Below, piece by piece: positions 1,739 to 39,388 of a stretch of 40,982 nt of DNA. Every line of letters begins with the position of its first letter. The first letter of the stretch is position 1. Below the pieces are notes generated by a model. It searched no databases. It worked only from the letters and a program-made list of their open reading frames with translations, and was not told the origin of the DNA. Source of the DNA: Acidobacteriota bacterium (GTDB taxonomy: Bacteria; Acidobacteriota; Vicinamibacteria; Vicinamibacterales; UBA2999). The position numbers and the translations under genes were made by a program. Location: positions 1 through 40,982 of the forward strand of contig JAUSDY010000003.1 of NCBI GenBank assembly GCA_030650395.1, in the 5' to 3' direction.

Positions 1739-2860
1739 TCATCGCGTTTTTTTCTTCGCCAGGTATGCCGCTTTCAATGCGTCCACCAGCCTCGCATCGA
1801 CCAGCCCGGGCGCGTTGCCCTGGAAGTTGAGCTTGCGATCGGTCCTGAACTTATCCACCGCCGCGATCGCCTCGTCGTCAAACGTCGCGAAATCGCGCGT
1901 GTAGCTGGCCGTCGCCTGACGGGCCTCGGCGATCGCCTTGTCGTAGGCCGCCGGATTCGTCTTGCGCAACTCCTGCAGCGCCGGCGTGTTGGTCCCCCGC
2001 GGCGCGTCAGGGAAGGCCGCGAGCGTGGGCCGCCAATAGCCCAGCGCGTGCAGCATCCGTTTCAACTCGACCACGTCGGCGCCCTCGACGCGAGAGAAGG
2101 TGCGATAGCCGAGCCGCCGGCCGGTCGTGTAGTAGATGCGCTTCATCTCGGCCACCGGATCGGCGTGCTCGCCGACTTCGATCGCCAGCGTGATGTGGTC
2201 GTTGCCGCGTCCGGAGTCGTTCGGGTCGGCGACCTTGATCGCCGCCGACTGCAGGTTGCCCCAACGGCGATCGCCGCCCTTGGCGTAGCCGGCTTCCATC
2301 GCGAGAATCATGCGCTCGGCCAGCGGCAGGCCCGCGCCTTCGGTCGACTCGAACGTCGCCGCCACCGCCTCGACCACCTCGGGGCCGACCATGATGTTCG
2401 CCTGCACCGTGTAGTTCAAGCCCTGCCGGCTGCCCGCCCAATCGCCATTGCCCTTGCCGGTGTGTGCCGCCGATCGCCCCTTCATGTCGATCATCCCGAG
2501 CTGCCGGGATTCGCGTTGTTGATCGTCAGACAGCAACTGCGCGATGGCCGCCGCGGGCTCGACACCTTTCGCCATCAAGTCCAATCCGCGCGCGCCGTAC
2601 TCGACCATCGTGGAGGCCTGCGTGCAGACGGCGCCGATGCCCGCGCGCACGTGCGGCACGGCGCGGCCCACGAACGGCACGCGCGTGGTGACGGTGGCGC
2701 CCGACTGGCCGGTCGCCGGATCGATCGCGCACAGTGAAAATGTCGAGTACTGCGGCAGCCCTTCGTCGTTGATAGTCACGCCGTCTGCCGCGCGCTGTTG
2801 GGCAAGAGCCGTGAACGACAGAACGGACGTCATCACGATCGCGATGAAGAGACGGGTCAT
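1739..2860 (-). CDS. secreted DUF1028 family protein
   Basis: 373 residues from an ATG at 2860. A good AGGAG sits five bases upstream, and the start gives a clean signal peptide (MTRLFIAIVMTSVLSFTALAQ). Residues about 35-250 match DUF1028, an Ntn-hydrolase-like family: TFSLCAIDPATGQSG, RAGIGAVCTQA, RQLGMIDMKGRSAAHTG, NYTVQANIMVG, and PLAERMILAMEAGYAKGGDRRWG. Residues 280-373 form a helical C-terminal extension with PGLVDARLVDALKAAYL near the end. The enzymatic activity of DUF1028 is not established. The longer reading that starts at 2920 lacks a ribosome site and puts a charged stretch before the signal peptide, so I rejected it. First gene of the minus-strand DUF1028-amidohydrolase-lipocalin unit. 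Confidence 0.87.
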   Translation of the reverse strand: MTRLFIAIVMTSVLSFTALAQQRAADGVTINDEGLPQYSTFSLCAIDPATGQSGATVTTRVPFVGRAVPHVRAGIGAVCTQASTMVEYGARGLDLMAKGVEPAAAIAQLLSDDQQRESRQLGMIDMKGRSAAHTGKGNGDWAGSRQGLNYTVQANIMVGPEVVEAVAATFESTEGAGLPLAERMILAMEAGYAKGGDRRWGNLQSAAIKVADPNDSGRGNDHITLAIEVGEHADPVAEMKRIYYTTGRRLGYRTFSRVEGADVVELKRMLHALGYWRPTLAAFPDAPRGTNTPALQELRKTNPAAYDKAIAEARQATASYTRDFATFDDEAIAAVDKFRTDRKLNFQGNAPGLVDARLVDALKAAYLAKKKTR

Positions 2861-2916: not shown

Positions 2917-3144
2917 TCACGGCGCTCCGAGGCGAACGCGCGCCCCTTGCATGGCGAAGGCCAGCTCACGCGGATCGCCGGGGCCGGGTGAGTGCGCCGT
3001 GCCAAGCACACGGCCGACAAATTGAAACTTCGGGGAATCTTCAGGCCCGCCCACGCCGGAGCGGAGGGTGACGACGAACAGCGCAAGCGTCAGCAGTCCG
3101 ATGCCGGCCGCCCACGCCCTGTCGCGCCGGCTCAGCTCACCCAC
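2917..3144 (-). CDS. small single-helix membrane protein downstream of radical SAM gene
   Basis: 75 residues. A GTG at 3144 lies inside the end of the radical SAM gene (13-base overlap), in another frame. The protein has a basic N terminus (ELSRRDRAW), one hydrophobic helix (AAGIGLLTLALFVVTL, about 12-27), and then a short extracytoplasmic tail with GPEDSPKFQFVG and RELAFAMQGARVRLG. This is the topology of a small N-in membrane anchor. I recognise no family. Its overlap makes it the probable last gene of the sigma-STAS-coiled coil-radical SAM operon. It could be a spurious open frame in GC-rich DNA, but the positive-inside hydrophobic helix right after the overlap argues for a real gene. Confidence 0.5.
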   Translation of the reverse strand: MGELSRRDRAWAAGIGLLTLALFVVTLRSGVGGPEDSPKFQFVGRVLGTAHSPGPGDPRELAFAMQGARVRLGAP

Positions 3145-4493
3145 AGCGTGCGCATCGTCGTCGGCGAGCCGCAGGCTTCGAACCAGTCGATGCCCTCGCT
3201 CACCAGATCGAACTTGAGCCCGTAACGTCCTGGTGTCTCGGGTGCAGGCACTTCGATGCGGACGGTGGTCTGCGCCCCTGGCGCGAGGTCCGAGGGCAAC
3301 CAGGCGCGGGCGTGATCGCGATTGAGCAGCGTGCCGTCGGGAGCGACCAGCTGCGCGCCGAGGCGAACGAGGCGGCGCCCGTAGCTGGCTTGCGCGCGAA
3401 ACGGCCGGCTCGAGAGGTTCTTGACGTGCGCGGTCAGCGTCAGCGGCGTTGCGGCCCTGGCGAGGAACGGCAGATCCGGCAGCACCGTGCGCACGTCGAT
3501 CTCGGCGCGCGGCGTCGCGCCCGCGATGGCATTGCCCAGACCGCTGACATCCCACACCTCGTACTTGATCCGCTCATGGTCGGGCGAGCCGGGCGCGAAG
3601 CGGCGCGAGAAGCTGTCTTCGGGGTGGTCGGTGAGCTCCCAGCAGAGGCGATCGACGCCGATGTCGGCGGCCATCTGCCGCGCACGCGCCATCTCTTCGT
3701 CGGAGTCGTTCCAGTTGAACAGGATGTAGCGCCAGTTCACGAACGGGACGTCGCGGCCGATTTGTCCCTTCTCATCGATCAGGGCGCGCAGGTTGGCGAT
3801 CGCCTTGTCGAAGTTGCCGCGCTGCCGATAGCGCACGTAGGCTTCCTGCGACGAGCCGTCGAGCGAGAACGTCACTTCGTCGATGCCCGAGCGCGCCAGC
3901 TGTCGGACCTTTTCCTCGGTGAACGCCAGGCCGTTGGTGCTGGTGTAGAGGTAGATATGCGGGAACTTCGTCTTGATGTACTCGCACATCTCGACGGCGC
4001 GCTTGTGAAGAAACGCTTCGCCGTAATTGAAGAAGTCGATCCGCCCGAGCGTGGGCCCGGCTTCGTCGATGATTCGCGTGAACAGGTCGAAGTCGAGCAT
4101 TCCCGCCTGCCGCGTGCGGGTGATGCCGGTTTCGGGCGCGCAGCACGCCTGGAAGCACGAGATGTTGCAGGCCGCCGTGCACTCGATATACAGACGCCCC
4201 GGGATCGCGCTGACGTTGAGGTCGCGCTGCGGCGGAGCCTGATCCGGTTCGAGCGGCAGCTTGAGCGGGCAGTCGCCGCAGAATGTCGAGCCACCGGCGT
4301 TGATGTCGGTGCGAAGCTGCGTAGCAACAGGGCCGCGCCAGATATCAGCGATCGACGAGGTCCGTGTATCGCCGAGCACGCGCTGCGCATACGGATCGGC
4401 GCAGCCGCACACCATGCGGCCGTCGCAGAGCAGGACGCCGATCGACCAGGGCCACGAACAGGTAAAACGAGTTGCCAGGTAGTTGAGCGACAT
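3132..4493 (-). CDS. radical SAM protein with N-terminal SPASM-like cluster and C-terminal beta-sandwich
   Basis: 453 residues in three parts. Residues 12-75 resemble a SPASM domain that binds auxiliary Fe-S (Cys 12, 23, 29, 31, 72, 75, with VLGDTRTSSIADIW between). Residues about 100-300 are the radical SAM barrel: ECTAACNISCFQACC at 104-118, FFNYGEAFLHKRA as the GGE-like strand, then STNG and FSLDGSS. Residues about 340-453 are a beta-sandwich (LTAHVKNLSSRPF, LPSDLAPGAQTTV, GRYGLKFDLVSEGIDWF) like those appended to glycan and methyltransferase proteins. SPASM is usually C-terminal, so the order is permuted. The cluster cysteines are spaced Cx3Cx3C, not the canonical Cx3Cx2C. Substrate unknown. 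It is the fourth gene of a sigma-factor operon and the gene before it ends in a heptamer repeat. Confidence 0.88.
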   Translation of the reverse strand: MSLNYLATRFTCSWPWSIGVLLCDGRMVCGCADPYAQRVLGDTRTSSIADIWRGPVATQLRTDINAGGSTFCGDCPLKLPLEPDQAPPQRDLNVSAIPGRLYIECTAACNISCFQACCAPETGITRTRQAGMLDFDLFTRIIDEAGPTLGRIDFFNYGEAFLHKRAVEMCEYIKTKFPHIYLYTSTNGLAFTEEKVRQLARSGIDEVTFSLDGSSQEAYVRYRQRGNFDKAIANLRALIDEKGQIGRDVPFVNWRYILFNWNDSDEEMARARQMAADIGVDRLCWELTDHPEDSFSRRFAPGSPDHERIKYEVWDVSGLGNAIAGATPRAEIDVRTVLPDLPFLARAATPLTLTAHVKNLSSRPFRAQASYGRRLVRLGAQLVAPDGTLLNRDHARAWLPSDLAPGAQTTVRIEVPAPETPGRYGLKFDLVSEGIDWFEACGSPTTMRTLWVS

Positions 4494-4494
4494 T

Positions 4495-4515
4495 TCTGAA
4501 CTCTGAACTCTTAAC
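4495..4515. repeat. heptamer array, three TCTKAAC units
   Basis: Three tandem 7-mers (TCTGAAC, TCTGAAC, TCTTAAC) fill the junction between the radical SAM start codon and the upstream coiled-coil gene. The last unit contains the TAA stop of the coiled-coil gene on the minus strand. Same unit family as the arrays at 22574, 24217 and 39354. Confidence 0.85.
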
Positions 4516-4777
4516 TTTTCCCGAGTTTCCGCAAATACGCCTCGAGCTTGTCGTTCTCGTACGACACCTGGTTGAGAAACAGGCTCTCCGCCAGATAGGC
4601 GCGCCGCTCGTCATCGGTCAGCTGACCGATCAGGTGATTGATCTCGCGGTTGAGGTCCTCGAACGACCGCTCCAGCTCTTTCTTGGCGGTGACCTCCTGG
4701 AACAACGCCTCGAGCACGGCGAGCAAGTCGCCGTCGAGCGCGACCTCGGTTCCGGATGTGGTCTTGATGCTGCGCAT
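4511..4777 (-). CDS. small acidic coiled-coil protein of unknown function, between STAS and radical SAM genes
   Basis: 88 residues, strongly helical: LLAVLEALFQEVTAKKELERSF (19-40) and EDLNREINHLIGQL (41-54) show heptad-like hydrophobic spacing, followed by a second helix YLAESLFLNQVSYENDKLEAYLRKLGKS. The N-terminal MRSIKTTSGTEVALDGD looks like a short beta hairpin. No family recognised and no catalytic residues visible. It starts two bases after the STAS stop, so it is co-translated with it, and its stop codon lies in a heptamer repeat. Position suggests a partner or adaptor of the STAS protein or of the radical SAM protein; that is inference only. Confidence 0.8.
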   Translation of the reverse strand: MRSIKTTSGTEVALDGDLLAVLEALFQEVTAKKELERSFEDLNREINHLIGQLTDDERRAYLAESLFLNQVSYENDKLEAYLRKLGKS

Positions 4778-4779
4778 GA

Positions 4780-5121
4780 CTAGCTCCCGAAGCTCTGAAG
4801 GGCGCCCGCCTCATCCGGGAACATCTTCAGGAAATTGTGCGCCCCCGTCATGGTGAGCATCGTCTCGACCCGCTTATTGACGCCCGCCAGCCGCAGCTCG
4901 CCGCCGGCCGCCGAGCTCTGGCGATAGAGGTCCATCAGGCACCCGATGGTGGCCGAGTCGACGTAGGTGACCTTCGACAGATCGATCACCACTTTCTTGT
5001 CGCCGGCCGACAGCAGCGACATCACCGCGCCGGAAAAATCCGCGAGCAGCGGATACATCAGCCGCGTTTCGCCGATGCGAACGATGGCGATGCCTTGAGA
5101 GCGGTCGGTGGTGAGATTCAT
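4780..5121 (-). CDS. STAS-domain anti-sigma factor antagonist (SpoIIAA/RsbV-like)
   Basis: 113 residues, the standard length for a stand-alone STAS domain. It begins with beta strands (GIAIVRIGETRLMYPLL) and carries the diagnostic VVIDLSKVTYVDSATIGCLMDL, where Ser56 in the DSA motif is the residue phosphorylated by a partner anti-sigma kinase in known anti-anti-sigma factors. GELRLAGVNKRVETMLTMTGAHNFLKMFPDEAGAL is the usual C-terminal helix-strand-helix. Known relatives bind a switch kinase to release a sigma factor. No HATPase anti-sigma kinase is encoded next to it here. It overlaps the ECF sigma gene by four bases, so the pair is translationally coupled. Confidence 0.92.
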   Translation of the reverse strand: MNLTTDRSQGIAIVRIGETRLMYPLLADFSGAVMSLLSAGDKKVVIDLSKVTYVDSATIGCLMDLYRQSSAAGGELRLAGVNKRVETMLTMTGAHNFLKMFPDEAGALQSFGS

Positions 5122-5717
5122 TCCGTAACCCTTTCGTCTTCGTCACGCAGCCGCTGGACCTGGCGGGCGAGCTCGGTGCGGCCGCGATTGATCCGAGATT
5201 TCACAGTGCCCTCGGGCAGCTGCAAGTGGTCCGCAATTTCCTGATACGAGAGTTCCTGGATGTCGCGCAGCATCACGGCGGTGCGCAGCGACGGCGCCAG
5301 CTCCGACATGGCCTTGCGCAGCAGCTCGACACGATCGCGCTGTTCGAGCGCCTGGTAGGCGTTCTGGCCGGGCGCGGAGGGCGTGAGCTCGCCGGCATCG
5401 ACGTCGCGATCGATGGTCTCGCGCTCCTTGCGCACGCTGCGATAGTGATCGATGCACAGGTTACGGCTCACGCTCACCAGCCAGGTCTGGAAATTGGCGC
5501 GCCGGTCGAAGGTGTGCAGCGACTTGAAGATCTTGAGAAACACGTCCTGCGTCAGGTCTTCGGCTTCGTCGTGGCGGCCCGTGAACTTGTAGGCAATGTT
5601 GAAGACCTTACGGCGGTGCTGGCGAACGATGTCTTCCCACGCGGTCTGGTCGCCGCCCAGGCAGCGCTGGATCAGGGCATCAATCGCATCAGTGGAAACC
5701 GACGAAGGATCGGGCAT
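5118..5717 (-). CDS. ECF (RpoE-like) RNA polymerase sigma factor
   Basis: 199 residues, ECF size. Region 2 is at about 25-95: DIVRQHRRKVFNIAYKFTG, then DEAEDLTQDVFLKIFKSL and FQTWLVSVSRNLCIDHYRS. Region 4 is at about 135-190: LRTAVMLRDIQELSYQEIADHL and LPEGTVKSRINRGRTELARQ, the helix-turn-helix for the -35 element. Regions 1.1 and 3 are absent, as in ECF factors. It heads an overlapping operon with a STAS protein rather than the usual zinc-finger anti-sigma factor, which suggests control by a partner-switch route. Start ATG at 5717 lies 37 bases downstream of an extended -10 (TGG-TATGAT). Confidence 0.93.
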   Translation of the reverse strand: MPDPSSVSTDAIDALIQRCLGGDQTAWEDIVRQHRRKVFNIAYKFTGRHDEAEDLTQDVFLKIFKSLHTFDRRANFQTWLVSVSRNLCIDHYRSVRKERETIDRDVDAGELTPSAPGQNAYQALEQRDRVELLRKAMSELAPSLRTAVMLRDIQELSYQEIADHLQLPEGTVKSRINRGRTELARQVQRLRDEDERVTE

Positions 5718-5753: not shown

Positions 5754-5759
5754 ATCATA
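5754..5759 (-). promoter_or_regulatory. extended -10 element upstream of the sigma-STAS-radical SAM operon
   Basis: On the minus strand TATGAT is preceded by TGG, an extended -10 pattern, about 36 bases from the sigma start codon. No good -35 lies 16-18 bases further up, which extended -10 promoters tolerate. Confidence 0.4.
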
Positions 5760-5893
5760 CCATCCCGTCCCATCATCGAATTCGACGACCATCTCCGTCC
5801 ATCTCAGTGAAGGAGCTGTTGCCCCCGCAATGCTCCGCAAACTCGCCGCCAATTCCGTGTCCGTTCTTCCAGGTAAGCAATCTGGAGGAGCAC

Positions 5894-6733
5894 ATGAGCC
5901 TTATCAAACGGCAACGCACACTGTGGCGGGCGGTCGTGTCAACCGGCGTCGTCATTCTCGCCCTCGGACTGGTTTTTCCGCAGCTGGCTGCTGCGCAGAC
6001 CGACCTGAAGAGTCCGAAGCCTGCGTTGGATCGCAACGGCGGGCAGATTCCGGGCCACTTCACGGTCACGATTTGCCGGGGAACGCCCTTTGACATGACC
6101 CCGATCAACCGGGGGCGCGATCGCTACACCACGCCGCATGACGTCCGGGTGACCAACACGACCGGCACGAGCGCGCGCGGCGGCTCGCAGGGCACCAACG
6201 GCACCATTCGTTTCACGTCCGGCGGGCCGGGTCTTCCGGGCCCGCTCGGCGAGACGACGATCGAGTACGACATCATCGATGGCTCGACCGGTGCGGCGCC
6301 GATCGCACCTGCCGTGAATACGCCGCCGCAGGCGGCGCCGAGCAATCCACCGCCAGCGGCTCCGCCCCCGCTGGCAACCGCCAACGGCACGTGGGCGCCG
6401 TCGTCGTGCCGCGTCGCCTCCGATCCGGGATTCCACGATGCGGTACTCGCACTCTGCCGCGTCCTGAGTATCTTCATCTTCACCGAAGGGTCTATCACCA
6501 TTGCGCACCCGGCGCCGTTTGTCACCATCACCGGCGACTACAACACGACCAGTGGCGTGTTCACCGCGACCGGTCGAGGCACCGTCGCTGGATTCCCTAA
6601 CGTCGGCGTTCGTGGCGAGGGCACCATCACGGCGAGCACGGGCCAGGCGCGGTTCAATTACACGCTGGGCACGGGCGGGGAATTGCCAATGGGGCAGCCA
6701 ATCACGTACGAAATCGTTTTGCAGAAGCGGTAG
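5894..6733 (+). CDS. secreted protein with proline-rich linker, unknown function
   Basis: 279 residues from ATG 5894, chosen because GGAGGAG ends three bases upstream and the start gives a signal peptide (basic MSLIKRQRTLWR, hydrophobic VVILALGLVFPQLAAAQ). The mature protein has an N-terminal domain (about 40-135, TVTICRGTPFDMTPINRG, with DVRVTNTTGT), a Pro/Ala-rich linker (about 138-162, PPQAAPSNPPPAAPPP), and a C-terminal beta-rich domain (about 165-279) with repeated Gly-Thr strands such as ITGDYNTTSGVFTATGRG and GVRGEGTITAS. The two Cys in the C-terminal part could form a disulfide. I recognise no family. It is divergent from the ECF sigma gene, so the 176-base gap may hold both promoters. 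Confidence 0.78.
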   Translation: MSLIKRQRTLWRAVVSTGVVILALGLVFPQLAAAQTDLKSPKPALDRNGGQIPGHFTVTICRGTPFDMTPINRGRDRYTTPHDVRVTNTTGTSARGGSQGTNGTIRFTSGGPGLPGPLGETTIEYDIIDGSTGAAPIAPAVNTPPQAAPSNPPPAAPPPLATANGTWAPSSCRVASDPGFHDAVLALCRVLSIFIFTEGSITIAHPAPFVTITGDYNTTSGVFTATGRGTVAGFPNVGVRGEGTITASTGQARFNYTLGTGGELPMGQPITYEIVLQKR

Positions 6734-8004: not shown

Positions 8005-8720
8005 CAGTCAAGCCCTCAACCGGGCCCCCAGCGCGGCAGCCGCGCTGGGGTGGAAGCCCTCAAGCCCCCTTCGACTCAGCCGACTCCCCAAGCGGACTCG
8101 GCTTCGCTCAGGGCAGGCTCAAGCCCACCGGTCACTTGATCGCATTTGAAGGCCTCGATCAAAGCGGAAAGCAGACCCAGGCGGAGCGATTGCTCGCCGC
8201 GTTTCGCGCCGGCGGGCATCGCGCCGAGTTCCTGACCTTCCCCGAATACAAGACCGCCATCGGCACCGAGATCGGCCATGCGCTGCAAGGGGAGCGCGAC
8301 TACGCACCCGATACGCTGCAGCTGCTCTACATCGCGAACCGGTTCGAGTTTCGGCCGCGGATCTCATCGTGGCTGGACGAGGGCACGATGGTGGTCTGCG
8401 ATCGTTACCTGGCCTCCAGCATCGCGTATGGCGAAGCGCAGGGCGTGGATCCGCACTGGCTCAGCGCGATCCAGCGGCATCTGCCGCAACCCTCGCTGAC
8501 GTTGTTGCTCGATATTCCGCCGGACGCGTCACTGCATCGCAAGAAGGTCGCGCGCGACAAGTTCGAGCGCGACTTGTCGTTGCTGGGCCGGGTGCGCGAA
8601 AGCTACGTGCGTCAAGCGAAGGAAGGGGTGCGATGGGTGCACCTCGATGGGCAGCAAGACAAGGACGCCGTGTCGGCTGCCGTACTCAGCGCCGTGCGCT
8701 CGCAACTCGGGCTGCTGTAA
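8001..8720 (+). CDS. tmk: thymidylate (dTMP) kinase with repeat-encoded N-terminal extension
   Basis: 239 residues. The core begins at about residue 44: HLIAFEGLDQSGKQTQ holds the P-loop (51-59), CDRYLASSIAYGEAQG the DR motif, and a C-terminal lid region KKVARDKFERDL follows. The enzyme phosphorylates dTMP to dTDP. Normal family members start two to five residues before the 'FEG' strand. Here about 43 extra residues, rich in Pro, Gly and Ser, separate the ATG (overlapping lysA by ATGA) from the core. These residues are encoded by two dispersed repeats (8007-8064 and 8069-8119). An internal TTG at 8134 could restore a normal N terminus but has no ribosome site. The 3' end overlaps convergent comF by 35 bases. 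Confidence 0.9.
   Translation: MTVKPSTGPPARQPRWGGSPQAPFDSADSPSGLGFAQGRLKPTGHLIAFEGLDQSGKQTQAERLLAAFRAGGHRAEFLTFPEYKTAIGTEIGHALQGERDYAPDTLQLLYIANRFEFRPRISSWLDEGTMVVCDRYLASSIAYGEAQGVDPHWLSAIQRHLPQPSLTLLLDIPPDASLHRKKVARDKFERDLSLLGRVRESYVRQAKEGVRWVHLDGQQDKDAVSAAVLSAVRSQLGLL
8007..8064. repeat. palindromic dispersed repeat inside 5' end of tmk (copy 1)
   Basis: A 12-bp perfect inverted repeat, arms CCCCAGCGCGGC and complement around one base, is flanked by CCCTCAAC/CCCTCAAG octamers. The same element lies in inverted orientation at 33708-33772, in the tail of a histidine kinase gene. In tmk it encodes residues 3-22. Confidence 0.85.
8069..8119. repeat. second dispersed-type imperfect palindrome in 5' end of tmk
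   Basis: A CTTCGACTC...TCGCTCAGGGCAGGC stretch with an imperfect hairpin (AGCCGACTC against GGACTCGGCT). It abuts the palindrome at 8007-8064 and encodes residues about 24-40 of the Tmk extension. Only this copy was seen in the window; I recall similar CTTCGACTC/GCTCAGGGCAGGC repeats from environmental genomes, which is memory rather than evidence. Confidence 0.45.
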
Positions 8721-9408
8721 GCGCGCGCACCTCTTTCGCACCCGCCGCCTTCAAGACTGATGCGCACGCGTCCAGCGTCGCGCCCGTCGTCGACACGTCG
8801 TCGACCAGCACCACCACATGTGGGGACAAACCTTTCTTGTCCGCCGAAGCGCCAAGCGCGAAGGCGGAAGGTTTGTCCGCGAGCGCGAACGCATCATGAA
8901 CATTGCGATGCCGCTCGTCCTTCGGCAGCTCGATCTGCGATGTGGTGTAGCGATTGCGGCGGAGCAACGGACGAACGGGCACTCCGAGAGCTCGAGCCAG
9001 ATCATCCGCCTGGTTGAACCCGCGCGATCGCTCCCGCCGAGGATGCAGCGGCACCGGCACGACGACATCCGCGCCGCGCAGCAGATCGGCGCCCGCCGAC
9101 CGCATCAACGCGCCGAGCGGCGGCGCGATCGATCGCCGGCCTTCATATTTGAGCGCGTGAATGATCTCGCGAAGAGAGCCTTCGTACTCGCCGATCGCAG
9201 CCGCCCAATCGACGGCGCGCTCATCGCCGAAGCGCTCGTTGTACGCTCCTGACGTGAGCCTGGCCGCCGTAGCCATGGCGGAGGCGGCGGCCCAACACGT
9301 CTCGCACACCGCGCCGTCGAGCGGGTGTGACAACACCGTCTTGCACGCAGCGCAGGGCGGTTCGAACAGGGAAGAGAGGAGGCGGTTGGTAAGAGCGCGC
9401 CAGGTCAT
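8686..9408 (-). CDS. comF: ComF family phosphoribosyltransferase-like protein with in-frame repeat insertion
   Basis: 240 residues from ATG 9408. An upstream extension to 9483 translates only a repeat, so I exclude it. Residues 13-40 carry the four-Cys zinc ribbon (CAACKTVLSH...CETCW). GEYEGSLREIIHALKYEGRR and VVVPVPLHPRRERSRGFNQADDLA are the ComF signatures, and VVLVDDVSTTGATLDACASVLKAAGA is the PRPP-binding loop. ComFC proteins act in competence/DNA uptake or related DNA processing; dprA lies 5 kb away. Residues about 177-195 (DKPSAFALGASADKKGL) are translated from the 55-bp palindromic element at 8824-8878, at the loop just before the PRPP strand where homologues have a variable turn. The gene overlaps tmk tail to tail. 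Confidence 0.92.
   Translation of the reverse strand: MTWRALTNRLLSSLFEPPCAACKTVLSHPLDGAVCETCWAAASAMATAARLTSGAYNERFGDERAVDWAAAIGEYEGSLREIIHALKYEGRRSIAPPLGALMRSAGADLLRGADVVVPVPLHPRRERSRGFNQADDLARALGVPVRPLLRRNRYTTSQIELPKDERHRNVHDAFALADKPSAFALGASADKKGLSPHVVVLVDDVSTTGATLDACASVLKAAGAKEVRALTAARVASARR
8824..8878. repeat. 55-bp palindromic element, copy inside comF
   Basis: Ends GGACAAACCTT and AAGGTTTGTCC form an 11-bp terminal stem. The core has a second stem with a symmetrical GAA/GAA internal loop (GTCCGCC-GAA-GCGC against GCGC-GAA-GGCGG). By eye it is identical at 54 of 55 positions to the reverse complement of 9423-9477. Confidence 0.95.
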
Positions 9409-9422
9409 GGCTGTCGCCTCGA

Positions 9423-9477
9423 GGACAAACCTTCCGCCTTCGCGCTTAGCGCTTCGGCGGACAAGAAAGGTTTGTCC
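9423..9477. repeat. 55-bp palindromic element, inverted copy upstream of comF
   Basis: Inverted copy of the element at 8824-8878, one mismatch in the loop. It sits between the rsfS stop and the comF start (15 bases before the comF ATG), so it forms part of the comF leader. Confidence 0.95.
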
Positions 9478-9506
9478 CCACAATCACGGCACCCACAATC
9501 ACGGCA
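9477..9506. repeat. perfect 15-bp tandem duplication at the rsfS stop codon
   Basis: CCCACAATCACGGCA occurs twice in direct succession (9477-9491 and 9492-9506), touching the 55-bp element on one side and spanning the rsfS stop (TGA, 9499-9501) on the other. Each copy carries the TGA. Confidence 0.9.
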
Positions 9507-24206: not shown

Positions 24207-24216
24207 AGCCACACCA

Positions 24217-24297
24217 GTTCAGAGTTCAGAGTTTAGAGTTAAGAGCTAAAATCTAGCGGCGTGTTCTTAACTCTAAACTCTTAACTCTGCACTCTGC
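24217..24297. repeat. inverted pair of heptamer arrays between MATE gene and trmFO
   Basis: Left: GTTCAGA, GTTCAGA, GTTTAGA, GTTAAGA, GCTAAAA (24217-24251). Right: TCTTAAC, TCTAAAC, TCTTAAC, TCTGCAC, TCTGC (24265-24297), ending exactly at the trmFO ATG. The arms pair to give a long imperfect hairpin covering the whole leader of trmFO. Confidence 0.93.
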
Positions 24298-28988: not shown

Positions 28989-30920
28989 ATGCGAACACCG
29001 ATCCTGACGCTCGTCGCGCTCGTCTTTGCTCTCGAACTCGGCGGCGCCGGCCAGGTGCCGGTGCAAGACCGGCAGCCGGCGGGGTCGGCGTTAAGGCCTG
29101 CGGTGATGGGGCCGACCGGCGGTGTCTCGACCGGGCACCCACTGACCACGGCGGCGGCGTTCGGCATTCTGCTCAAAGGCGGAAACGCATTCGATGCCGG
29201 TGTCGCTTCGCTGATTGCAGGCGGCGTGCTCGAGCAGGATCTCTACAGCCTCGGCGGCGAAGCGCTCGTGCTCGTCTATCCGAAGAAAGACGGCAAGGTC
29301 ACCTCGATCGTGGGCCAAGGCTGGGCGCCGAAAGCGGTCGACGTCGATTGGTATCTGTCGCGCAAGAAGAGCCTGGAAGGCGAGGGGTTGGATCCGGCCG
29401 TGGTCCCGGGCGCGTTACATGCCGCGCTGACGGTGCTCGAGAAGTGGGGCACGATGAGCTTCGAAGACGTCGCGGCGGCCGGCATCGGCTACGCCGAGAA
29501 CGGCTTCCCGATGCGCAACAGCACCGCGCGCGCCATTCGCGCGCAACAGAAGTTCTTCGAGAAGTGGCCCGGCAACAGGACCTATTGGCACAAGGCCGAC
29601 GGCTCGCAGTATCAGCCGGGCCAGACGATCACGCTGCCCAGCCTGGCGCGCACGCTCAAGCGGATGGTCGAGGCGGAGCGCGGCGCGAAGTCGCGCGGCC
29701 GCGCGGCCGGGATCGTCGCGGCGCGCGATCGTTTCTACAAGGGCGACATCGCGCAGGAGATGGTCGCGTTCCTGCAGAAGAACGGCGCGCCGTTCGACGC
29801 GTCCGACTTCGCCGAATATTTCGCGCGCATCGAGGAGCCGGCGAAGACGACCTATCGCGGCTATACGGTTTACAAGCATGGCTTCGGCAGCCAGGGCCCG
29901 GTGCTGCTGCAGGCGCTCAACATCCTCGAGAACTTCGATCTCCACAAGATGGGGTACGGCAGCGCCGACTACCTGCACACGGTGATCGAGGCGATCAAGC
30001 TGGCGTATGCGGATCGCGATACCTACTACGCCGATCCCGCGTTCGTGAAGGTACCGGCCGAGGGCTTGCTGTCGAAGGCGTACGCCAGGGAGCGCGCGGC
30101 GCTGATCGATCCGAAGAAATCGTCGACATCATTCATTGCCGGCGATCCGCTGAAGCACGACTCGCAGGTCAAGCAGTGGACGTTCTGGAAGGCGAATGTG
30201 CAGAACGCCGTCACACCCCGCACCGGAGCTGTGGCCGCTGGTGGCGACAAACCTTTCTTGTCCGCCGAAGCGCTTGGCGCGAAGGTGGAAGGTTTGTCGG
30301 GCGACGATTCATCGGGCGTGGTCAAAGACACCACGCACATGGCGATCATCGACAAGGACGGCAACATCTTCGACGTCACGCCGAGCGGCGGCTGGGTGCC
30401 CGGCGCGGTGATCCTCGGCGACACCGGCATCGGCATGAGCGTGCGCGGCGAGCAGTTCTGGCTCGACAAGACGCGCGCCAACCAGATCCGCCCGCGCGCC
30501 CGGCCGCGCTACACGCTGACGCCGAGCCTGGTGTTCAAGGGCGACATGCCGATGATGGGCCTCGGCACGCCCGGCGGCGACAACCAGGACCAAACCATCC
30601 TGCAGGCCTTCCTCAGCATCGTCGACTTCTGGGATGAGTGGTACCCGAACCTGCACGCCGCGCTCGAGCGCCCGCGCGCGCAGACGATGCATTTCTACGG
30701 ATCGTTCTGGCCGCACACGGCGGGCTTCAATCAGCTGAATGTGGAAGCGACGATTCCAGACTCGGTTTACAACGAGCTAAAGGCGCGCGGCCACGACGTC
30801 AGCCGCCTGCGTCCGTTCGGGATGTCGGGCTGCGCGACCGCGGTGATGATCGATCCGGCGACGCAGAATCGCTTTGCGGGCGCGGACCCGAGAAGAGACT
30901 GCTACGCGATTGCTTATTAG
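28989..30920 (+). CDS. ggt: gamma-glutamyltransferase with a repeat inserted before the catalytic threonine
   Basis: 643 residues with a signal peptide (about 1-20). An Ntn hydrolase that cleaves glutathione and other gamma-glutamyl amides after self-cleavage into two chains. Seen: GGVSTGHPLTTAAAFGILLKGGNAFDAGVAS, SLGGEALVLVY, DPAVVPGALHAALTVLEKWG, GYGSADYLHTVIEAIKLAYADRDTYYADP; and, in the small chain, KDTTHMAIIDKDGN with the predicted nucleophile Thr448, then PRYTLTPSLVFK and GLGTPGGDNQDQTILQAF. Residues about 419-437 (DKPFLSAEALGAKVEGL) are translated from a 55-bp palindromic element (30245-30299), ten residues ahead of the cleavage site. That segment is normally a flexible, variable stretch, so activity may be kept. 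Probably co-transcribed with the cyclophilin. Confidence 0.93.
   Translation: MRTPILTLVALVFALELGGAGQVPVQDRQPAGSALRPAVMGPTGGVSTGHPLTTAAAFGILLKGGNAFDAGVASLIAGGVLEQDLYSLGGEALVLVYPKKDGKVTSIVGQGWAPKAVDVDWYLSRKKSLEGEGLDPAVVPGALHAALTVLEKWGTMSFEDVAAAGIGYAENGFPMRNSTARAIRAQQKFFEKWPGNRTYWHKADGSQYQPGQTITLPSLARTLKRMVEAERGAKSRGRAAGIVAARDRFYKGDIAQEMVAFLQKNGAPFDASDFAEYFARIEEPAKTTYRGYTVYKHGFGSQGPVLLQALNILENFDLHKMGYGSADYLHTVIEAIKLAYADRDTYYADPAFVKVPAEGLLSKAYARERAALIDPKKSSTSFIAGDPLKHDSQVKQWTFWKANVQNAVTPRTGAVAAGGDKPFLSAEALGAKVEGLSGDDSSGVVKDTTHMAIIDKDGNIFDVTPSGGWVPGAVILGDTGIGMSVRGEQFWLDKTRANQIRPRARPRYTLTPSLVFKGDMPMMGLGTPGGDNQDQTILQAFLSIVDFWDEWYPNLHAALERPRAQTMHFYGSFWPHTAGFNQLNVEATIPDSVYNELKARGHDVSRLRPFGMSGCATAVMIDPATQNRFAGADPRRDCYAIAY
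30245..30299. repeat. 55-bp palindromic element, copy inside ggt, with compensatory stem change
   Basis: Same length and layout as 8824-8878, but the outer pair has changed at both ends: CGACAAACC and GGTTTGTCG. About five further differences by eye, three of them in the loop. It is read in a different frame and on the opposite relative strand from the comF copy. Confidence 0.93.
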
Positions 30921-33689: not shown

Positions 33690-34901
33690 CTAATCGTTAC
33701 GAGGGGACTTGAGCGCTTCCACCCCAGCGCGGGTGCCGCGCTGGGGGCCCGGTTGAGGACTCGAGGGCTTGACCGCGGCGTCGGGACTCGGACCGACCCG
33801 CAGCGTCACCCGGAACCGGGTGCCCCGCCCTTCGGCGGTGGACATGTCGATGCGGCCGTCGTGCGCGTCCACGATCTTGCGGACGACCGCCAGGCCGAGG
33901 CCAGAGCCTTTCGGCTTGGTGGTAAAAAACGGGTTGAAGATCTTCTCCGCCACATCCGGCGGCACGCCGGGGCCGTTGTCGGCAATGTCGACGATCACGG
34001 TGGGCACCGCCTGGTGGCCGTCGGGCAGCAGCGCGCCTTCGGCGGCGGTGGTCGCCAGCCGCGCGCTGAGATCGATCCGGCCCTGGCCGTCGAGCGCCTG
34101 GTAGGCGTTGATCAACAGGTTGGCAAAGACCTGCGTGAGCTGGTGAATGTCGCCGCCGACCGGAGGCAGATCCGTCGGCACGGCCATGTTGATCACAATC
34201 TGGCCGCGCTGCGCCTCGCCGTCCGCCAGCGTCAAGGCGCTACCGAGCGCGTCGGCCACCGACGTGGGAAATAACTGGACCTTGACCGGCCGCACGAACG
34301 ACAGCACTTCCTGCACGATCGCATTGGCGAGCTTGGCTTCGTTGATGATCTCGCCGACCAGCGCCTGTGCGTCGGCGTTGTCTTTCGTCTTGCGCCGCAG
34401 CAGCCCCGCCATGACCTCGATGCCGGCGAGCGGGTTCTTGATCTCGTGCGCCATCACCGCCGCCATCTCGCCGACCGCTGCCAGCCGGTCGCGCAGCCGC
34501 TCGCGCTCTTCTTGCTGCTCGACCAGCGTGAGGTCCTTGAAGAACAGCGCCGCGCCCACCGGCTCGCCATCTTCCTGGCGGACCAGTGACAAGGTGTAGC
34601 CGATCACCATGTCGGTCGAGCTGAGCCTGAGCTCCGCGCGGTTGGGGAGGGCCGCCATGCCGAAGGCGCCGCCGAGTACGCGCACGATATCCGGGTGATC
34701 GCCGAGAACGTCGGCGTACGGCCGGCCGATTAAGGTCAGAGGCGGGGGTAAACGGAACAGCCGGCAGGCTTCTTCGTTGACGAGCACGACGCTGCCATCG
34801 CGCGCGATGGCGAGCACGCCGTTCCTCATGTTCCCCACCATGTGGCGGAAAAACACGTCAGTGCCTGGCTTCTTTTTGGCCGCGCGCCTGGGCATAAGCA
34901 T
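33690..34901 (-). CDS. PAS-domain sensor histidine kinase, partner of the NtrC-type regulator
   Basis: 403 residues from ATG 34901 (a TTG at 34925 would add eight). No membrane helix, so a cytoplasmic sensor. A PAS domain covers about 20-130 (NMRNGVLAIARDGSVVLVNEEACRLF, GAALFFKDLTLVEQ). The H-box is AVMAHEIKNPLAGIEVMAGLLRRK near 165; N-box NLLINAYQALDG; G1 VDIADNGPGVPPDVAEKIFNPFFTTKPKGSGLGLAVVRKIVDAHDG. This is the NtrB/AtoS-like architecture. The last residues after LRVGPSPD (about 375-403) are encoded by the palindromic repeat at 33708-33772 and are not part of the kinase fold. The leader contains two perfect inverted repeats. Confidence 0.94.
   Translation of the reverse strand: MLMPRRAAKKKPGTDVFFRHMVGNMRNGVLAIARDGSVVLVNEEACRLFRLPPPLTLIGRPYADVLGDHPDIVRVLGGAFGMAALPNRAELRLSSTDMVIGYTLSLVRQEDGEPVGAALFFKDLTLVEQQEERERLRDRLAAVGEMAAVMAHEIKNPLAGIEVMAGLLRRKTKDNADAQALVGEIINEAKLANAIVQEVLSFVRPVKVQLFPTSVADALGSALTLADGEAQRGQIVINMAVPTDLPPVGGDIHQLTQVFANLLINAYQALDGQGRIDLSARLATTAAEGALLPDGHQAVPTVIVDIADNGPGVPPDVAEKIFNPFFTTKPKGSGLGLAVVRKIVDAHDGRIDMSTAEGRGTRFRVTLRVGPSPDAAVKPSSPQPGPQRGTRAGVEALKSPRND
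33708..33772. repeat. palindromic dispersed repeat in kinase gene tail (copy 2)
   Basis: Inverted copy of the tmk element (8007-8064): CCCCAGCGCGG and complement, here around three bases, flanked by GAGGAC/GAGGGCTT octamers. Translated as the last residues of the kinase. Confidence 0.85.
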
Positions 34902-34947
34902 CAGCTGTCGCGCGGGAACGAGCAAAGCTCGTGCCCCATTCTAAATA

Positions 34948-37896: not shown

Positions 37897-38487
37897 ATGG
37901 TAGCGACCGACGAGGAGCTCGTCGCCAAGTCCATGGCTGGCGACCTCGAGAGCTTCAACCAGCTCGTTTTGCGCTGGGAACGGCCGATCTATGCCCTGGC
38001 GTACCGGGTCCTCGGACGCGACGAGGACGCGCGAGATGTCGCCCAGGAGACCTTCCTCCGGGCGTTCCGGGCCCTGCCCGGATTCAAAGGCCAGGCGAAA
38101 TTCTCGTCCTGGCTGTACAGAATTGCTCTGAACCTCTGCCGCGACTGGATCCGCCGCAAGAAGCGGACCCCGGTGGTCGACATGCCCGAGGGGGTCGACA
38201 TCGCGGAGCTGGCGGCGGAGCAGGGACCGGTCGAGTCGATCGAAGACCTGGTGGCGCGGCAGGAAATGAGCCGCATCGTGGCCGAAGGGATGAAACTGCT
38301 CCCCGAGGAACAACGCACCGCGATCGTGCTGAAGGAATACCACGGGCTGACGTTTCAGGAGATTGCGGAGCTGCAGGGATGTCCCCTCAGCACCGTGAAG
38401 ACGCGTTTGTATCAGGGACTGAGCGTGCTTAGAAAGCACCTCGAAAGCCAGGGCATGACAAGCCTCAATAGCGGACGAGCATCATGA
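37897..38487 (+). CDS. ECF RNA polymerase sigma factor with anti-sigma partner
   Basis: 196 residues from ATG 37897; two upstream in-frame starts (37813 and 37765) exist and there is no clear ribosome site for any. Region 2: RWERPIYALAYRVLGRDEDARDVAQETFLRAFRALPGF, FSSWLYRIALNLCRDWIRRKKR. Region 4: LLPEEQRTAIVLKEYHGLTFQEIAELQGCPLSTVKTRLYQGLSVLRKHL. It overlaps the anti-sigma gene by four bases (ATGA), the classical ECF pair. A GGAACTT-N15-GTCTTA sequence 2 kb downstream (40307-40334) may be one of its targets. Distinct from the STAS-linked sigma factor at 5118. Confidence 0.93.
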   Translation: MVATDEELVAKSMAGDLESFNQLVLRWERPIYALAYRVLGRDEDARDVAQETFLRAFRALPGFKGQAKFSSWLYRIALNLCRDWIRRKKRTPVVDMPEGVDIAELAAEQGPVESIEDLVARQEMSRIVAEGMKLLPEEQRTAIVLKEYHGLTFQEIAELQGCPLSTVKTRLYQGLSVLRKHLESQGMTSLNSGRAS

Positions 38488-39353
38488 ACGACACGATTCA
38501 TATCGAGAACGAAACACTGGTCGCCTACATCTACGACGAGGTCGACGCGCCGGAGAAGGCGCGGGTCGCCCGTCACCTGCAGCAATGCGCAACGTGCGGC
38601 GCCGAGTACGCCGCGTTGACCGGCGTGCGCACCGTACTGCAGGCGTGGGCGCCGCCTCACGCCGGGCTCGGCTTCACCGTGGTGCCACGGACCGAGGCGG
38701 AACAATCCGCGCGCGTGCTGCGGCCCGCGCCGTGGTGGAACACCGTGCCGGTGTGGGCGCAAGCCGTCGCGGCGATCCTGGTGCTGGCCGTGAGCGCGGC
38801 GGTGGCGAACATTCAGGTTCGCTCGGGCGCCGACGGCTTTGCCGTGACCACGGGCTGGATGTCGCAGTCCGCCTCCGCTCGCGAACGAACGAGCGAGCTA
38901 CCGCGGGACCCCGCCGACTTGTCCGCCGGAGCTTCAGCGAAGGCGGAAGCGGCCATAGGCCGCGAAGGCGGGGCCGCCGCAACGCGTGCACCAGTGGCGA
39001 CAGCGAGTGTCACCGGCGCTGAGGACTGGAAGGCCGCGCTCGTGTCGCTCGAGCAACAGCTGCGCAACGAGATCCGAACCAGCCGAAGCGCTGACGCGGT
39101 TGTGAGGACGTCGTCTCGGCCGAGCGCAGACGAGGCGACCATCAGGCGCGTGCAGGAGCTGCTGGCGGCGAGCGAGGCGCGGCAGGAGCGCCAGCTGGCC
39201 CTGCGTCTCACGCAGTTCAACCGCGACGTCAACGTGCAGCGCCAGGCCGACCTGGTTCGTATTCAACAGCTCTTCGGTCATTCCGAAGGCGAGATTTCCA
39301 AACAGCGGCAGATGCTTAACTACGTAATGCGCGCCTCAGCTCCCCAACAGTGA
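38484..39353 (+). CDS. zinc-finger (zf-HC2) transmembrane anti-sigma factor
   Basis: 289 residues. The cytoplasmic anti-sigma domain has the HxxxCxxC zinc motif in VARHLQQCATCGAEYAAL (H31, C35, C38). One membrane helix follows (about 91-110, VWAQAVAAILVLAVSAAVANI). The outer part is long and helical with coiled-coil potential (EDWKAALVSLEQQLRNEI, RRVQELLAASEARQERQLALRL) and could sense or bind an envelope signal. Residues about 145-155 (DLSAGASAKAEA) come from a core copy of the palindromic element. Known members hold their ECF sigma until released by stress. The stop codon is directly followed by a heptamer array. Confidence 0.93.
   Translation: MNDTIHIENETLVAYIYDEVDAPEKARVARHLQQCATCGAEYAALTGVRTVLQAWAPPHAGLGFTVVPRTEAEQSARVLRPAPWWNTVPVWAQAVAAILVLAVSAAVANIQVRSGADGFAVTTGWMSQSASARERTSELPRDPADLSAGASAKAEAAIGREGGAAATRAPVATASVTGAEDWKAALVSLEQQLRNEIRTSRSADAVVRTSSRPSADEATIRRVQELLAASEARQERQLALRLTQFNRDVNVQRQADLVRIQQLFGHSEGEISKQRQMLNYVMRASAPQQ
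38917..38949. repeat. core-only copy of the palindromic element in anti-sigma gene
   Basis: ACTTGTCCGCC-GGA-GCT against AGC-GAA-GGCGGA, the inner hairpin of the 55-bp element with a more diverged loop, read in frame in the linker after the membrane helix. Confidence 0.75.
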
Positions 39354-39388
39354 GTGCAGAGTTAAGAGTTAAGAGTTAAGAGTTAAGA
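39354..39388. repeat. heptamer array, GTGCAGA plus four GTTAAGA units
   Basis: Five 7-mers starting at the base after the anti-sigma stop codon. The purine-rich end AAGAAGAG may also serve as the ribosome site of the next gene. Confidence 0.95.

Follow-up and report, generated by a model that had tools for sequence, protein, structure and literature searches.

A 40,982-nucleotide stretch of an Acidobacteriota genome (contig JAUSDY010000003.1 of assembly GCA_030650395.1; the whole stretch is referred to as the window) carries on its minus strand a tight cluster of genes that starts with an extracytoplasmic function (ECF) sigma factor and a STAS-only protein, followed by a small protein designated CC88 and a radical S-adenosylmethionine (SAM) protein designated rSAM. 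The original prediction, made from this one locus, described a five-gene unit that ended with a 75-residue protein. Comparison with 193 genomes of the class and 396 genomes of the phylum retains the sigma-STAS-CC88 core of that unit, often with rSAM behind it, and removes the fifth gene, which is not conserved. The features of the locus are as follows.

5118..5717, minus strand: ECF sigma gene, 199 aa, first gene of the trio (Pfam PF04542, 3.5e-22; PF08281, 7.5e-16)
4780..5121, minus strand: STAS-only (SpoIIAA/RsbV-like) gene, 113 aa, with Asp55-Ser56 (Pfam PF01740, 1.2e-16)
4511..4777, minus strand: CC88 gene, 88 aa, unnamed family kept across the class; no Pfam cut-off reached
3132..4493, minus strand: rSAM gene, with SPASM-like N-terminal domain, barrel and immunoglobulin-like (Ig-like) C-terminal domain; optional fourth gene
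2917..3144, minus strand: 75-aa one-helix open reading frame (ORF) with a GTG start, probably outside the unit (conservation search)
5754..5762, minus strand: extended -10 promoter TGGTATGAT, 36 nt before the sigma start codon (motif scan)
1739..2860, minus strand: DUF1028 gene, the next one downstream (Pfam PF06267, 3.6e-60)

Conservation of the sigma-STAS-CC88 trio

The sigma and STAS genes overlap by the four nucleotides ATGA (5121-5118), STAS and CC88 are separated by 2 nt, and CC88 and rSAM by 17 nt. The absence of a zinc-finger anti-sigma gene beside the sigma factor, which had been pointed out as unusual, agrees with the Pfam matches of the cluster proteins, none of which is to a zinc-finger family. 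Another, ordinary ECF sigma gene in the window is followed by a zf-HC2 gene, a zinc-finger anti-sigma candidate (37897-39353, plus strand; Pfam). The presence of such a pair in the same window indicates that the contrast with the sigma-STAS unit is real.

CC88 is matched in 168 of the 193 class genomes and STAS in 181 (E <= 1e-10, paralogs partly included). A STAS match adjoins CC88 in all 164 CC88 loci that were fetched, and a sigma match adjoins the pair in 157, two of which are the fragmentary loci of genome G108. The seven loci lacking a sigma match comprise four at contig ends (two genomes) and three from outside the class. These are counts of loci and not of genomes, with several genomes present twice, once per collection; genes in the fetched loci were called with a codon-usage caller. 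Many of the genomes are metagenome-assembled and split into many contigs, so that some absences are assembly gaps. Outside the class, CC88 was found in six genomes of the phylum sample, three with the full trio and three with STAS-CC88 only. A contig scan with one peptide pattern, taken as the best 80 of 104 loci, included a few from records of other phyla.

The trio is usually flanked on one side by a divergent lysA-like decarboxylase gene and a thymidylate kinase gene, and on the other by convergent lpxC and uvrA genes (representatives checked with Pfam). Of 73 distinct well-flanked loci, 65 have a divergent lysA no more than 3 kb away and 60 a convergent lpxC no more than 4.5 kb away; rSAM is present at the trio in 29. 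The conserved core unit across the class is the sigma-STAS-CC88 trio, which has been conserved for a long time. Three loci of families f16 and f18 (L068, L069 and L070) have in common a small gene after CC88 (DUF1573 in L070) and a nuclease/phospholipase-like gene ahead of sigma, as judged by eye.

Of 112 non-redundant loci, the window included, 65 carry the motif TGnTATnnT, an extended -10 element, in the 200 nt immediately ahead of the sigma match, typically ~45 nt before the start of the match. In the same 112 loci, 50 shuffles gave a mean of 1.1 and a maximum of 3, and the reverse strand gave 8. A dyad search upstream of sigma returned only frequent G+C-rich words, equally strong on the reverse strand. 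Judged by the extended -10 element, the trio promoter reads as housekeeping (sigma-70 type) and not as ECF autoregulatory.

The PF01740 match spans residues 5-106 of the 113-residue STAS protein, so that the STAS domain is the entire protein; its score against TIGR00377 is 53.0 bits, with a curated cut-off of 53.45. All 116 distinct STAS proteins of the trio have the Asp55-Ser56 pair, in agreement with the predicted SpoIIAA-like protein with Ser56. CC88 appears, from its sequence, to belong to no named family that was found. Residues D17, E23, E45, E74 and N75 are near-invariant in 116 distinct sequences, and the predicted structure (predicted local distance difference test, pLDDT, 82) is a β-hairpin with three helices. 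The 88-residue protein had been described as helical; conservation and three helices stand, and the modeled hairpin means that it is not all helix. No PDB fold was matched at E <= 0.001 and the sequence search gave a best E of 0.13. Weak fold matches to viral capsid proteins (VIA Z <= 3.4) were judged to be chance. The CC88 protein of the window reaches no Pfam cut-off, and the best Pfam match of 17 CC88 proteins is a generic coiled-coil model (9.1e-5, in 4 of 17). Pfam includes a NepR model, and NepR is not among the families listed for these 17 proteins at E <= 1, which cover 25 of 27.

The radical SAM gene

As predicted, the radical SAM protein is permuted, with SPASM (residues 12-76) ahead of Radical_SAM (104-242) in Pfam. 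Both models match each of the 11 proteins in a diverse alignment, and the order was seen in three. The cysteines of the C109-x3-C113-x4-C118 motif are present in 65, 66 and 66 of 66 distinct sequences; the usual spacing in radical SAM proteins is C-x3-C-x2-C. The nearest solved sequences are those of BtrN and BlsE (PDB 4m7t and 7vob, respectively), enzymes whose substrates are sugar-derived small molecules. The barrels of all three are similar. BtrN also aligns in a second, weak segment (8 bits), which places its C-terminal auxiliary-cluster region on residues 9-75, the N-terminal domain of rSAM. In contrast to BtrN and BlsE, rSAM has a permuted domain order, the C-x3-C-x4-C spacing and a C-terminal Ig-like domain. 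The predicted model is of medium confidence (pLDDT 75, with the cluster loop 105-126 below 50); its best fold match is BlsE, and the other top matches are to Ig-like domains, from glycoside hydrolases and from NBR1. Because the barrel is nearest to BlsE and BtrN and the C-terminal domain is Ig-like, we infer that the substrate may be a sugar- or envelope-related small molecule rather than CC88. The score against the NCBIfam model N_Twi_rSAM (NF033640), 24.4 bits with a cut-off of 170, places rSAM outside that family.

At a cut-off of E <= 1e-60, rSAM was matched in 82 class genomes; exclusion of G175, whose copy is a paralog of 40% identity, left orthologs of at least 63% identity in 81 of 193. 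The gene lies directly behind CC88 in 68 of the 81, 65 by coordinates and G117-G119 by reading of the locus. The 65 loci measured by coordinates have 5-208 nt between match ends and span 12 of the order's 15 families. In ten genomes rSAM is unlinked (G038, G086, G097, G098, G101, G144, G162, G163, G164 and G185), in G063 it is 2.1 kb from the trio, and in G051 rSAM is separated from CC88, each at the end of a contig (L217 and L196, respectively). G108 has an intact rSAM (85%) beside a broken trio, reduced to residues 1-45 of STAS, residues 45-88 of CC88 and the latter half of sigma. Conversely, G174 retains a remnant of rSAM at the linked site between CC88 and lpxC (L200:5059-5470), with the start and the C-terminal domain present and the middle deleted.

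The original prediction had named independent occurrence of the genes in most genomes as evidence against a link between them. Such independence is seen from the side of the trio, as an rSAM ortholog match is missing from 87 of the 168 CC88 genomes, some of them incomplete. It is not seen from the side of rSAM: all 81 rSAM genomes in the class carry at least part of CC88, and no ortholog was found in the 25 class genomes where CC88 had no match; these 25 come from a few lineages. The chance of finding none in these 25 is 3e-7 if genomes are independent, which they are not; the co-occurrence figures carry no phylogenetic correction.

On a tree of 53 rSAM copies, which includes nine of the ten unlinked ones (G097 is excluded), linked copies are found throughout, the base included, and at least four changes are required to account for the unlinked ones. 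The copies of G144 (family f1) and G098 (family f12) form a small group (SH-aLRT support 95) nested in family f3 copies, a placement as if rSAM had moved alone. An integrase-like identity of a fragment beside the G144 gene was dropped, there being no Pfam match. Outside the class, relatives of 44%–49% identity occur in G197, G217, G224 and G269, and of 35%–42% in G204, G218 and G242. Only two of the six out-of-class CC88 genomes (G197 and G217) have such a relative, on other contigs; none was found in G198, G212, G213 and G225. G204, G218, G224, G242 and G269 possess a relative (35%–49%), yet are absent from the CC88 matches of a search that covered them.

Taken with the linked copies at the base of the tree, the unlinked copies, G108, G144 and the separation that prevails outside the class show that rSAM is an old, ancestral fourth gene in the order, yet an optional one with a separable function. 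No common function was found among the neighbors of the unlinked and out-of-class rSAM genes. In G224 and G269 (L212:1523-3936 and L213) the relative is directly behind a small GTPase gene, which itself follows a roadblock gene; the GTPase looks MglA-like (Pfam Gtr1_RagA/Arf). G197 (L210:352-6425) has two adjacent rSAM/SPASM proteins, one SPASM-first and one SPASM-last, next to HAD-phosphatase (sugar-phosphatase) and PfkB-kinase genes that resemble heptose synthesis.

A scan for the one promoter type TGnTATnnT found it in 0 of 78 CC88-rSAM gaps (duplicates included), for which reason rSAM in the linked place is probably co-transcribed from the trio promoter. For the copies away from this place, nine upstream regions of unlinked genes were covered by two simple motif scans, as was a tenth region, L067, from the G063 copy 2 kb from its trio. 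The unlinked copies of the close relatives G162-G164 have an extended -10 element, TGCTATGCT, 55-58 nt before the start and of the general type of the trio, and others have a TATAAT-like box near the start. A promoter signal common to the trio and unlinked rSAM was rejected, as only housekeeping-type signals and no ECF-type motif were recognized in the nine regions. The CC88-rSAM gap of the window (4494-4510) consists of GAGTTCAGAGTTCAG-like heptamers, and similar short repeats occur at 24216-24294 and 39352-39381.

Downstream of rSAM, the 75-aa ORF reaches no family cut-off, and its sole match at E < 0.2 among the fetched loci is in G110, split in two separate pieces (L013/L073). It was rejected as a member of the unit since it is not conserved. 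The DUF1028 gene lies 3′ of rSAM in loci of the window's genus, g1 (L003, L004, L005, L006, L008 and L013), and overlaps rSAM by 4 nt in L013 and L158. On the other side of the trio, a plus-strand gene between sigma and lysA (5894-6733, scanned as 5807-6733) has no Pfam match and no labeled counterpart in the other loci of the neighborhood listing. Elsewhere in the window, a dispersed element of 58-65 nt, 91%–97% alike, occurs at 8819-8883, 9418-9482 and 30241-30298; it is found inside reading frames or at their margins (e.g., 8686-9483 and 28989-30920) and adds a DKPFLSAEALGAK-like run to the predicted proteins.

Natural deletions and a candidate partner switch

Nine genomes of one family (G120, G123, G124, G129, G131, G134, G139, G140 and G141) lack CC88 and an intact sigma gene and have kept STAS at the lysA-side trio site. 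Their STAS proteins show 64%–71% identity and have the D-S motif in nine of nine. No sigma ortholog was found elsewhere in these genomes: the best other sigma is of 30%–36% identity, with no match at 1e-25 in G131, where a remnant of sigma still lies beside STAS. On a 63-locus tree that includes eight of the nine genomes (G141 is excluded), the joint loss takes three changes, one of them forced by well-supported branches, and thus one to three events. rSAM is absent from all nine. Joint loss of sigma and CC88 with retention of STAS indicates that the first two behave as a sub-unit separate from STAS. This pattern fits an output pair, sigma with CC88 as its holder, and an input part made up of STAS with a kinase and a phosphatase in trans.

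The reading that we favor, at somewhat less than an even chance, is that the trio is a compact ECF sigma partner switch and that rSAM has a separate function. CC88, as a small cytoplasmic protein, would hold or otherwise control sigma, as NepR does for EcfG. STAS with unphosphorylated Ser56 would relieve this hold in the manner of SpoIIAA/RsbV, and an RsbW-like kinase and a SpoIIE-type phosphatase, both from genes outside the cluster, would set the state of Ser56. rSAM would have become the fourth cistron in an ancestor of the order.

There is no HATPase kinase gene in the cluster, and the best HATPase matches of the same genome fall outside the window contig. On that contig a single match (33813-34127), weak and below the cut-off, lies in a sensor-kinase-like gene (33690-34925) 28 kb away. 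The genome encodes three strong stand-alone RsbW-like HATPases and six SpoIIE phosphatases, and for two of the three HATPases the 8.5 kb fetched contain no STAS match. An RsbW-like HATPase gene (PF13581) on contig C171 of this genome, at L171:4012-4455, adjoins an inositol-monophosphatase gene and has no STAS match in its fetched 8.5 kb. This HATPase, matched in 163 of the 193 class genomes, is a possible partner for the trio STAS. The suhB-linked HATPase is kept in six of the nine STAS-only genomes, the other three being 78%–86% complete. As the STAS kinase it is only suggestive, and the identity of the kinase is a guess.

Several observations weigh against the partner switch. One of the three strong HATPases has a STAS gene of its own nearby, and among the six high-quality genomes in which the trio STAS is not intact (G108, G136, G153, G157, G161 and G173) the suhB-linked HATPase is kept in three and lacking in three. 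No likeness of CC88 to an anti-sigma factor was recognized in the family and fold matches listed. The model is further limited by the three of six out-of-class loci where STAS-CC88 has no sigma beside it. The best sigma matches in these genomes score 199-206 bits, like the second sigma copies of G197 (201) and G212 (194) and below the trio sigmas (280-322), and CC88 is therefore not tied to this one sigma. Rate covariation between sigma and CC88 (0.43) is no higher than that of the control pair sigma-LysA (0.42) by any clear margin.

It is unlikely, though consistent with part of this evidence, that CC88 serves sigma as a partner or co-activator, or STAS as a scaffold, and is not an anti-sigma factor, with STAS and its kinase as the sole switch. 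The STAS-CC88 pairs without sigma, the lack of known anti-sigma likeness among the matches listed and the adjoining STAS at every fetched CC88 locus would all suit such a role. The joint loss in nine genomes, however, removes sigma and CC88 and not STAS and CC88. We consider it similarly improbable that rSAM is the output of the trio, such that sigma and its switch would control a pathway using rSAM with CC88 left unmodified. Its place directly behind CC88 in most rSAM genomes and in 12 of 15 families, the gaps devoid of an extended -10, the lack of orthologs in the CC88-less class genomes and the CC88-rSAM rate covariation of 0.40 (44 branches, 26 loci) favor this view; yet the control pair reached the same covariation. 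Adjacency alone is weak evidence for a shared task, because unrelated neighbors such as lysA and lpxC are equally stable at the trio and rSAM is there in only 29 of the 73 loci. Moreover, about half of the CC88 genomes do without rSAM, ten copies are unlinked (those of G162-G164 under their own promoter, and none of the nine upstream regions with an ECF-like signal), the G108 gene has outlived its trio, and the G144 copy is placed with those of family f12.

Far less probable is the earlier idea that rSAM is a peptide maturase with CC88 or the 75-aa protein as its substrate or signal. SPASM domains are common in peptide maturases, and the SPASM domain of rSAM, together with its adjacency to CC88 in the window and in most rSAM genomes, speaks for the proposal. 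In rSAM, however, SPASM is ahead of the barrel and not behind it, no dedicated precursor peptide gene co-occurs, and the nearest solved relatives are BtrN and BlsE. Since 87 CC88 genomes have no rSAM match, CC88 is not its dedicated substrate; this distribution, with G108 and the out-of-class genomes in which rSAM relatives occur without a CC88 match, was the ground for rejecting CC88, and the 75-aa ORF falls for want of conservation. The case shows how adjacency in a single window can mislead, rSAM seeming part of the unit there and proving separable across genomes.

Relation to known switches

The partner switch proposed for the trio can be set beside published systems, here as described in excerpts of the cited papers. 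RsbV/RsbW and EcfG-NepR-PhyR are nearest in logic (PMC8256260, PMC8103513, PMC3999984). With RsbV-RsbW and SpoIIAA-SpoIIAB the trio shares a STAS-only protein with an invariant Asp-Ser pair, in a genome with RsbW-like HATPases and SpoIIE phosphatases; unlike them, its sigma is of the ECF type, no kinase gene is in the cluster, and the CC88 family is an additional component beside STAS (PMC8256260). EcfG-NepR-PhyR is likewise built on an ECF sigma, and the proposed small holder and phosphorylation-controlled antagonist have their counterparts there. The antagonist of the trio, however, would be STAS and not a response regulator with a sigma-like domain, and EcfG units are driven by their own response, whereas the trio promoter looks to be of the sigma-70 type (PMC8103513). 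CC88 also has no NepR match in the Pfam families listed, and no PhyR partner was recognized for the trio. By its likely operation, the trio would be a form of partner switching that is a member of neither RsbV/RsbW nor EcfG-NepR-PhyR.

In the Btr system of Bordetella the ECF sigma is BtrS. The STAS/HATPase/phosphatase set BtrU/BtrV/BtrW resembles the trio in occurring in an organism with an ECF sigma, but the kinase and phosphatase lie within the set, and a CC88-like protein is not described in the excerpt of that source (PMC8256260). Sigma and STAS functions are also coupled in sigma-SsdA/SipA of Actinoplanes missouriensis, where, in contrast to the separate protein found here, the STAS domain is inside the sigma factor and is bound by an anti-sigma domain (PMC10733313). 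A literature search, from which subscription journals were mostly absent, returned no class-wide ECF-STAS sigma switch in Acidobacteriota.

A more far-reaching version of the switch is possible but doubtful: CC88 would found a new family of small anti-sigma factors, and the trio would be a hybrid of an ECF sigma and a Gram-positive-type STAS serine switch, joined through CC88, fixed in most of the class and possibly serving as a general stress switch. Acidobacteriota are abundant and poorly tractable. If CC88 does control sigma, it would represent a new kind of small regulator and would offer a route to the stress biology of this group.

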